Shown here piece after piece: positions 47,702 to 52,557 of a stretch of 64,000 bases of DNA. The notes below the pieces were generated by a model. That model did no database searches and had not been told where the DNA came from. It saw only the letters and a list, made by a program, of their open reading frames with translations. Source of the DNA: Choricystis sp. odSpoLacu1 (lineage: Eukaryota > Chlorophyta > Trebouxiophyceae); NCBI GenBank assembly GCA_958009055.1, contig OY253649.1, positions 186,001 through 250,000 of the forward strand, read 5' to 3'. Both the position numbers and the translations under genes were made by a program. How positions within the stretch are numbered: the first letter of the stretch is position 1; every line of letters begins with the position of its first letter.

Positions 47702-47775
47702 TAGCGCCGCCACGGATCGAACGTGGGGCCTCCGGGTTATGAGCCCGGCGCTCTAATCCGCTGAGCTACGGCGCT
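47702..47775 (-). tRNA. tRNA-Met(CAU), intronless
   Basis: A 74-base cloverleaf on the minus strand. Acceptor AGCGCCG pairs with CGGCGCT and discriminator A. The D arm GCTCAGCGGATTAGAGC doubles as box A. The anticodon stem CCGGG/CCCGG has loop CTCATAA (anticodon CAT at 47741-47739). The T arm CCACG-TTCGATC-CGTGG contains box B GTTCGATCC. No CCA is encoded. The T-loop begins TTC as in elongator tRNAs, but the A1:U72 pair and three G:C pairs under the anticodon are features of eukaryotic initiator tRNA. I favour the elongator. Confidence 0.95.
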
Positions 47776-49850: not shown

Positions 49851-49870
49851 ACACACACACACACACACAC
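49851..49870. repeat. (AC)n microsatellite at the stop codon of the CCA-exonuclease gene
   Basis: Ten AC units reaching the first base of the minus-strand TAG stop. Confidence 0.9.
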
Positions 49871-52188
49871 TACCACTCCATCCTGGGCCACGCCTTGGGG
49901 TCGGTCCCCCGCCAAGGCAGTTCATCCAGCAGGGCGCGCATATCAGCCACGCTGGCCAAGTCTCTCTCCACCTGCACCCGCCACACCCACTCTTTCAGCC
50001 GCCCCAGCTGTTGGCCGGGTTTGAGCCCTGTCGCCTCCATCAACGATGCTCCATCCAGCAGGCAGGCGGGGGCGGAGAGGGGGGGCAGGGCGCGCCAGGC
50101 GTCCACGAAAGCGTCCACCCGAGCAGTCGCGATCTTCCCCCCCTCCTCCCCTCCCGCCTCCTCGCCATCCGCCGCCGCCAGCGTCGCCTCCAGCAGCAGC
50201 TGCAGCGTCAACTGGCTGCCCATGGTGCATCGGAAGAGGCGGGCGGCGGCCGCGTCGGCCGCGTCGGGCAGGCGGCCGAGGGAGGCCACCGCGCGGGTCA
50301 ACCGCCGCGCTTCGTGCCGCCCCAGCCTCAGGCCGCGGGCAGCAGAGGCGGCAGCGTCGGGGGCGCACCCGGCCAGTAGAAGAGCCAGGCGGGCGACGAC
50401 GAGGTCGGGGGCGTCGCCCGCGTAAGCCTGAACAGAGGAGTCTGCCGAGCGGGTGACTTCGGCCACTGCACCATCGCGAGCCATGGCCGTCAACAACACC
50501 CCCAAAGACGCCGCATCATCCAGGGCGGCGTGAGGGCGGCCGGAGTGAGTCAGCCCCAAATCCGCCAGCATGGAGGCGAGGGAGGCTCGGGGGCGGAGGT
50601 AGTGCTCGCGGTACAACACCTGGGCGTCGCACCACGCGGCCGCCCAGGAGGGTAGCTCGATGCCCACCGCCTCCGCCTGTCTCAGCAACAAGGTGTCCAG
50701 GTCCCAGTCGCCCACTGTGACGGGCAGCAGGCGGTGCGGGTCGGCGGTGGTGGTGGTGGTGGAGGAGAGGGCGCCATTGTCGACCAGCCACGCTGTCAGT
50801 GCATCCAGGGCGGGGCCCAGGGTGGGGGCGGCATCGACATCAGCCTGCGTCACCCCTGTAAACGCCACACAGAAATCAGGCAGTATCGGGTGCAGCGTGG
50901 GCCGGACGTGGGTGTGGAAGCGCGCGGTCTCTGTGCATGTTTCCCCATCCATCAGCACAGCCCCAATTTCAATGACTTCCTGGGGCTGCGGCGAGCGAGG
51001 GGCGTCACAGGTAGCCTCCAGATCCAGGGCCAGCAGCATCGCCGGTCTGGGTGGGGCGGGAGGGGGCGGGGCGCCGGCTGCACGCGGAGACGACGACGGC
51101 GACGCCGCGCGTCCCGCCGCCACGCTGCCCGAGTGCACGTTCAGGCCGTGCGCGCGCGCGCGCTCGTGAAACCGGCGCCACGCGGTCAGCAGGTGGGCTT
51201 GAACCCGCACGCCGCGGGCGGTGGGGGAGGCGTCTAGGGTGCCGGGAACGGCGGCCGCGAGCGCGCCGTCGACCGCCATTGCGCGCAGCACGGCGTCCGC
51301 GTTGCGCCCCACCAGTATCTTGGACAACTCCTCCCACACCCGCTCCCGCGACACACGGGCTGCAGCCGCCTGCACGGGTGCAGACGCGAGGGCGGTGGCC
51401 AGCGGAGGGTCGAGGGTGCGCAGGCCGGCCGCGCCCGCGTCGAGAAAGCGGTACGCGCGCCAGACCCTCAACCCGTCGTCGGTTAAGCGTGTCGCGGGAT
51501 CGCCCACACACCGCAGCAGGCCTGCCGCCGCGTCGTCCGCGCCGCCATGCGGGTCCAGCAGCAGGCGGCGGGTGACATCCACAGCAGCTGCGTTGACGGT
51601 GAAGTCGCGGCGGGCGAGGTCGTCGACCAAGCGGGTCGCGATCGTCACCGCGTCGGGCCTCCGGCCATCAGTGTAACTGCCCTCCATCCTCAGCGTCGTC
51701 ACCTCCAGCACGGTGCCTCCCCGGCGCACGGAGAGGGTGCCGTAGGTGTCCCCCGTGCCGCGGTGGGGGACGGCGTCGGGGAAAACAGCGGCGACGGCCG
51801 AGGGAGGCAGGGACGTGCACACGTCCACCTCGCGCGGCGGCCGCCCCGCCATCACGTCCCGCACGCAGCCGCCCACCGGCCAGGCGGCGCCTCCTGCCGC
51901 GGTGATGGCGTCGAGCACGTGGCGCACGTCGCCCGGGAGGGCGTCGACCCATGCAGCCAGCGGGGGGGGCAGGGGGCGGGGCGTGATGCCGGCCAGCAGG
52001 TCGTCGTCGGTGGGAGGTGCGGCTTCGCCTGCTGCCGGCCCTGCTGCAGCGGCTGGAGGGCGGGCGAGGGGGTCGCCACTGGCGGCGCGCTTGCCGGCCA
52101 TTGTGAGGGCGGGCGGCGGGGCACGGGTGGACACAGGCGGACGCGCAAACGGGCGCGCAGTGGGAGTGGTCAGACGGGCGCCTCGCAT
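49870..52188 (-). CDS. CCA tRNA nucleotidyltransferase with an embedded ERI1/KapD-type DEDDh exonuclease
   Basis: An uninterrupted 772-aa frame (first ATG 52188) with an organelle-type leader (residues 1-30). Residues about 70-350 are a class II CCA-adding enzyme: GGCVRD (106-111), REVDVCT metal site (Glu120, Asp122; relatives have DxD), RRDFTVNA and the DDGLRVWRAYRF nucleotide-recognition helix. Residues about 383-565 are a complete 3'-5' exonuclease: LALDLEATC (Asp388, Glu390), GDWDLDTLL (Asp495) and GRPHAALDDA (His552, Asp557). Residues 565-772 return to helical body/tail sequence (LTLQLLLEATLAA, then LLDGASLMEATGLKPGQQLG). CCA enzymes add CCA to tRNA 3' ends; ERI1-type nucleases trim RNA 3' ends. 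One polypeptide could therefore trim and rebuild tRNA tails. There is no frame break at either junction. Confidence 0.88.
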   Translation of the reverse strand: MRGARLTTPTARPFARPPVSTRAPPPALTMAGKRAASGDPLARPPAAAAGPAAGEAAPPTDDDLLAGITPRPLPPPLAAWVDALPGDVRHVLDAITAAGGAAWPVGGCVRDVMAGRPPREVDVCTSLPPSAVAAVFPDAVPHRGTGDTYGTLSVRRGGTVLEVTTLRMEGSYTDGRRPDAVTIATRLVDDLARRDFTVNAAAVDVTRRLLLDPHGGADDAAAGLLRCVGDPATRLTDDGLRVWRAYRFLDAGAAGLRTLDPPLATALASAPVQAAAARVSRERVWEELSKILVGRNADAVLRAMAVDGALAAAVPGTLDASPTARGVRVQAHLLTAWRRFHERARAHGLNVHSGSVAAGRAASPSSSPRAAGAPPPPAPPRPAMLLALDLEATCDAPRSPQPQEVIEIGAVLMDGETCTETARFHTHVRPTLHPILPDFCVAFTGVTQADVDAAPTLGPALDALTAWLVDNGALSSTTTTTADPHRLLPVTVGDWDLDTLLLRQAEAVGIELPSWAAAWCDAQVLYREHYLRPRASLASMLADLGLTHSGRPHAALDDAASLGVLLTAMARDGAVAEVTRSADSSVQAYAGDAPDLVVARLALLLAGCAPDAAASAARGLRLGRHEARRLTRAVASLGRLPDAADAAAARLFRCTMGSQLTLQLLLEATLAAADGEEAGGEEGGKIATARVDAFVDAWRALPPLSAPACLLDGASLMEATGLKPGQQLGRLKEWVWRVQVERDLASVADMRALLDELPWRGTDPKAWPRMEW

Positions 52189-52557
52189 GAGAGGGGGGTG
52201 GAGGAGGCGTGTGGCGGCGCACAGCCAGCTGGGGGAGGGGAGGGGAGGAGGGTGGAATGTTAGCTCGAGCGGGGGGCAGCGACACAAGCTTCACTGCTCC
52301 CGTGTCTGTCGCACTACACGCAGGCAGCAAGCGGCATGCTGTGTGGCGTACCTCATAGCCGGGCGGCCGCCATGCGTGTGGAGGAGAAAGGGGAGGGAGA
52401 AGAGTGGCGACGAAGAAAAAACAGAACAGAAAAAACACCGTCTCTGTCGGCGCATCGGGGCACCCAAGACCAATGGTGCCGCCTTGTGCCTGCACAGCGT
52501 GCACGGCTGTGTGAACCGTCCCAAACAACACAGCCGATCAAACACGCACACGCTCGT
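52189..52557. promoter_or_regulatory. Divergent promoter region, CCA-exonuclease and helicase genes
   Basis: A 369-bp head-to-head spacer of mixed composition. No gene seen. Confidence 0.5.

Follow-up and report, generated by a model that had tools for sequence, protein, structure and literature searches.

A green-algal class II tRNA nucleotidyltransferase carrying an inserted ERI1-type exonuclease, a candidate for trimming and rebuilding tRNA 3' ends

The window analyzed here is a 64,000-nucleotide stretch from the green alga Choricystis sp. odSpoLacu1 (contig OY253649.1, positions 186,001 to 250,000), with a GC content of 61-80% along its length. Its reverse strand carries a gene encoding a class II (bacterial-type) tRNA nucleotidyltransferase with an ERI1/ERI3-type DEDDh exonuclease placed between the neck and body domains. 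The unbroken frame described in the initial annotation holds: it runs from stop to stop at 49870-52290 (-), is free of internal stops and spans 806 amino acids. Its features, in window coordinates, are as follows.

49870..52188 (-): whole coding frame from the first ATG, 772 amino acids; stop codon at 49870-49872; open back to 52290
52102..52188 (-): residues 1-29, possible targeting leader with five R/K and no D/E; predicted local distance difference test (pLDDT) of the model <50
51997..52101 (-): residues 30-64, variable N-terminal extension, from comparison with relatives
51511..51996 (-): residues 65-226, class II tRNA nucleotidyltransferase head; motif A GGCVRD...REVD, flexible loop YTDGRRP, motif B RRD
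51814..51879 (-): residues 104-125, motif A region, where E120-x-D122 replaces the usual DxD
51238..51510 (-): residues 227-317, neck; motif D DDGLR (D238, R241)
51151..51237 (-): residues 318-346, final neck helix ahead of the insertion, from the predicted model and alignment
51040..51150 (-): residues 347-383, Pro/Ala-rich linker of varying length among relatives, from alignment and the predicted model
50446..51039 (-): residues 384-581, inserted ERI1/ERI3-type DEDDh 3'-5' exonuclease; D389, E391, D496, H553, D558
50389..50445 (-): residues 582-600, exonuclease-to-body junction; 9/18 identical to Mesostigma
50074..50388 (-): residues 601-705, where the CCA-enzyme body domain resumes, from the C-terminal profile, predicted model and alignment
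49873..50073 (-): residues 706-772, CCA-enzyme tail domain (LLDGASLMEATGLKPGQQLGRLKEWVW), from the same three sources

Each Pfam match in the window protein exceeds its curated cut-off, with the head recovered as PolyA_pol (residues 103-226, E 1.3e-25) and the neck as PolyA_pol_RNAbd (residues 277-317, E 1.1e-5), in agreement with the class II head and neck first proposed, and the exonuclease recovered as RNase_T (residues 387-560, E 2.3e-20). The region after the exonuclease gave no Pfam match in this protein. We compared a profile of 11 family C-termini, seven of which were retained by the hhalign filter, with the C-termini of CCA enzymes and observed a probability of 97% (E 7e-11) against 34 bacterial-type sequences without the HD motif, 94% (E 1.4e-7) against 73 with it, and 96.8% (E 2.5e-10) against all 107; ten column-shuffled control profiles reached at most 0.72% against the 34 sequences without HD. 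Residues 81-763 of the predicted model also cover the Bacillus stearothermophilus CCA-adding enzyme, aligning 382 of the 395 residues of 1miv. Both flanks of the insertion are thus class II in sequence and predicted fold, and head, neck, body and tail are all present, which bears out both the CCA-enzyme-like sequence claimed after the exonuclease and the placement of the exonuclease within an otherwise complete enzyme.

Across ten aligned family members, including one from Mesostigma, residues R110, D111, D122, E162, D174, R176, R193, R194, D195, D238 and R241 are invariant. This set takes in motif B (R193, R194, D195) and two residues, D174 and R176, of the flexible loop YTDGRRPDAV, a loop described as missing from bacterial CC-adding enzymes (PMC7014341). 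Motif A retains GGCVRD, with carboxylates E120 and D122 (ExD) where well-studied enzymes have DxD, and motif D begins with D in place of E in nine of the ten. Poly(A) polymerase I carries a G[RK][RK]F signature in its head; by eye the signature is missing from the head of the window protein, and we rejected this identity.

Linker, exonuclease and junction together place about 250 residues between neck and body. The closest solved structure to the exonuclease is ERI1 exoribonuclease 3 (E 1e-29), and Pfam, structure-profile and predicted-model comparisons agree that the RNase_T fold is nearest ERI1/2/3. The ERI1 side of the earlier ERI1/KapD assignment therefore stands, with KapD the weaker model match (E 8e-12). 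All five catalytic residues are present as had been claimed, the earlier numbering being one too low, and they are identical in 9/9 full-length close members, the window included.

A protein search returned 22 matches, comprising the window's own protein (P0002), ten further database proteins carrying both domains (P0003-P0012, 53-91% identity over the aligned part) and 11 CCA-type proteins without RNase_T (P0013-P0023); a profile search added P0024 and P0025. The domain order is found in a single frame in P0003-P0006 and P0008-P0011, and also in P0007, which is without its N-terminus. By source name, P0024 is a JGI model of Mesostigma viride (Streptophyta) with the fused order within one gene model, and P0025 is a JGI model of Botryococcus braunii (Trebouxiophyceae), a short protein whose exonuclease begins at the same position before the sequence diverges, RNase_T not being called by Pfam. 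A search for the same order elsewhere, as initially suggested, thus found it in green-algal relatives, partially so in Botryococcus. For the nine close members of full length, counting that of the window, identity averages 0.78 for the head, 0.76 for the neck, 0.75 for the tail and 0.72 for both exonuclease and body, dropping to 0.48 for the linker; 74 of 190 exonuclease residues are identical between the window protein and Mesostigma.

An assembly error or gene model joining two genes would be the simplest challenge to these results, and we consider it highly improbable. The frame is lost within the exonuclease in P0012 and abandoned early in P0025, as two genes might predict, but each break is more simply explained by a frameshift or a retained intron in the record concerned, whereas the same order lies in one frame in the other close relatives and the Mesostigma model, with the frame maintained even though linker lengths differ. 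Because the exonuclease and both junctions are conserved at the protein level in independent sequences, an intron, two genes or an assembly error are all very unlikely, and the proposal of one gene and one protein is upheld. We regard the fused architecture as real, confirmed at the level of sequence.

In a tree of 128 head-neck sequences, the 12 fused rows form a single branch (support 100/99), within which Mesostigma diverges first on a long branch, followed by Botryococcus and then the remainder with the window, matching the species order. PMC9871001 gives Medakamo hakoo 15.8 Mb at 72.7% GC and places Medakamo and Choricystis together as sister to Botryococcus. The sequences surrounding the fused clade are bacterial wherever the source is named, its nearest neighbor, P0051, not being firmly placed (93/92). 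The simplest reading would be a single origin of the fusion predating the chlorophyte-streptophyte split, with transfer between the two lines a possible alternative.

The start of translation at M1 is uncertain, as its context is weak (C at -3, C at +4) and that of M30 is strong (A at -3, G at +4). Database-predicted starts of five relatives (P0005, P0008-P0011) correspond to M30, and P0024 and P0025 have longer stretches ahead of that place. The organellar leader first suggested is accordingly less certain, even though residues 1-29 are basic. Yeast and plant CCA enzymes use alternative starts to yield differently located forms, and by analogy it is plausible that two starts here give organellar and nucleo-cytosolic forms. 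Just 5' of the gene lies a GT...polypyrimidine-CAG stretch (52229-52351, -), and by eye the similarity to P0003 and P0004 starts near where it ends; the gene may thus have a 5' intron and a longer leader. The only tRNA found in the window by ARAGORN, and its only Rfam match at the gathering threshold, is a tRNA-Met (CAT) at 47702-47775 (-).

We searched the alga's own assembly (14.6 Mb, 19 contigs) for other tRNA-end genes. PolyA_pol matched at four places, taken as three genes including the fused gene, and the result was unchanged at E<=10. One of the others (L005) is a paralog like E. coli poly(A) polymerase, GRRF included. The other, L006 (C2:850000-856500, -), is a class II nucleotidyltransferase gene in two frames, from an intron or indel, in which a glycine-rich stretch replaces the flexible loop and no GRRF signature was seen; it could be CC-adding, contain an intron or carry an assembly indel within a run of G. 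The longer of its pieces gives only a weak match to the Arabidopsis CCA-adding enzyme 9kma (E 3.9e-6 over 84 residues), and the genome searches accordingly reveal no plant-type CCA gene, although one made of small exons could escape them. The cell may therefore rely mainly on the fused protein for CCA addition. Visual inspection assigned the three further RNase_T genes to an oligoribonuclease, a REX4-like protein and a fusion of exonuclease and helicase. In the long frame L010 (C2:981500-985021, -), a DEDDh exonuclease domain at residues 99-272 precedes the beginning of a DEAD helicase that by eye resembles RecG. An ERI1-type query matched only the fused gene, although a separate ERI1 may exist, since six-frame searches can overlook intron-split genes.

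With slightly better than even confidence, we propose that this protein trims and rebuilds tRNA 3' ends. The tRNA would be gripped at its acceptor arm by head, neck, body and tail while the exonuclease cuts back the single-stranded 3' overhang toward the discriminator base, removing a trailer remnant, surplus or wrong residues, or CCA itself, after which the nucleotidyltransferase would restore CCA. One tRNA-bound protein would thereby perform both steps, equivalent to an RNase T and CCA-enzyme cycle in a single chain. Under this proposal tRNA would be the exonuclease substrate, CCA would be added despite the ExD site, and the two activities would be coupled through the order of their reactions and the passage of the 3' end from one site to the other. 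RNase T is another DEDDh exonuclease, and ERI1-type exonucleases shorten short 3' overhangs beside stems. The proposal is favored because a tRNA end is such a stem-adjacent overhang and because CCA enzymes refill ends from which RNase T has taken the terminal A or LCCR4 the whole CCA (PMC11784652).

Several observations weigh against this proposal. The Mesostigma exonuclease has D, Q, D, L and N at the catalytic positions (E to Q, H to L, D to N; 3/5 lost) with its nucleotidyltransferase residues kept, so trimming is dispensable for some carriers. RNase Z-like matches are present in the genome, and the exonuclease is therefore probably unneeded for generating the tRNA 3' end; in addition, L006 could be an alternative CCA adder. 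The nucleotidyltransferase itself departs from its class, with ExD in 12/12 distinct readable members against D in 115/118 other proteins (E in one, unclear in two), and DDxxR instead of EDxxR in 12/13 members against E in 100/118 others (18 unread). These substitutions may lower or change activity, and E164D, a human variant with a comparable motif D change, is described as growing more poorly under RNase T stress (PMC11784652). Such reduced function would suit a nucleotidyltransferase half weakened or repurposed as a tRNA-binding platform that brings the exonuclease to the ends of tRNAs for turnover or decay. We nevertheless hold this to be quite unlikely, as the 11 invariant positions persist even in Mesostigma, where the losses fall in the exonuclease, and no plant-type CCA gene was found as a replacement. 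P0021, a divergent CCA-like protein without RNase_T outside the fused family, likewise has ExD (RELDV) in motif A, showing that the site is shared beyond the fusion.

The remaining explanations concern the exonuclease. ERI1-family enzymes trim 3' overhangs on stem-loops, those of 5.8S rRNA among them, and it is possible, though improbable, that the inserted domain does such general work and is merely physically joined to the CCA enzyme, with no cycle on tRNA. Its closest solved relatives are ERI3, ERI1 and ERI2, and with no second ERI1-like exonuclease turning up in the genome, ERI1 duties may have passed to the fused copy; however, an intron-split ERI1 could have escaped the search, and insertion inside a tRNA-binding enzyme at a junction still recognizable in Mesostigma suggests more than chance joining. 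A chiefly structural or RNA-binding domain, with catalysis secondary and lost in Mesostigma, is more doubtful still, as five identical catalytic residues in every full-length close member are unexpected for it. We give a similarly low but appreciable chance, on a par with general ERI1 work, to a template-independent RNA polymerase with a built-in proofreading exonuclease, which would excise 3' residues that the enzyme itself had added wrongly or that were damaged, and then let it retry. In the tRNA 3'-end editing model of Reichert and coworkers, wrongly incorporated 3' nucleotides of uncharged tRNAs are taken off by exonucleases and the polymerase tries again, by enzymes that a 2014 review called unknown (PMC4284800). 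By analogy the fused protein would suit this role and would be its physical form. A simple transfer of the editing idea is disfavored because, according to the same review, the truncated tRNAs of the model were neither restored nor edited by those recombinant CCA enzymes that were tested (PMC4284800).

All cells require CCA addition; to our knowledge, the trimming steps that come before it or work against it belong to separate enzymes wherever described. The literature searched (titles and abstract openings, with subscription journals mostly outside) yielded no described CCA-adding enzyme joined to an exonuclease among the matches listed, consistent with the initial statement that there is no described counterpart. 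The insertion is thus apparently undescribed, each half being known from other enzymes. If one green-algal protein does have both activities, tRNA end turnover and quality control become testable in a single purified enzyme, with the intact exonuclease of the window lineage and the degenerate one of Mesostigma forming a natural comparison pair. The ExD site of all readable members tests a rule on the nucleotidyltransferase superfamily.

Outside the insert, the algal protein shares the head-neck-body-tail fold of class II CCA-adding enzymes (B. stearothermophilus 1miv, human TRNT1 4x4w and Arabidopsis 9kma), together with motifs A, B and D and the flexible loop, and differs in its insert and in the ExD and DDxxR variants; in sequence it is closer to bacterial CCA enzymes than to the Arabidopsis enzyme. 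The solved ERI1-family DEDDh exonucleases (ERI3, 3'hExo/ERI1 and ERI2) are stand-alone, whereas the algal domain lies inside a tRNA nucleotidyltransferase. The E. coli CCA enzyme carries an HD phosphohydrolase domain and bacterial A-adding enzymes carry N-terminal DHH/CBS domains, so these too have a second hydrolytic domain, but of HD or DHH rather than DEDDh type and not between neck and body. Exonuclease and CCA enzyme also share a chain in P0062 (635 aa; 13 member sequences in its cluster), a bacterial-type, metagenome-type CCA enzyme that joins N-terminal RNase_T and HD domains to the same chain. Unlike the algal protein, its exonuclease is N-terminal and DnaQ/PRK06195-like, motif A keeps DxD, and it falls outside the fused clade, making it an independent exonuclease-CCA fusion. 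In E. coli RNase T with the CCA enzyme, and in T. brucei LCCR4, the CCA end is trimmed and then re-added as proposed here, but by separate proteins (PMC11784652).
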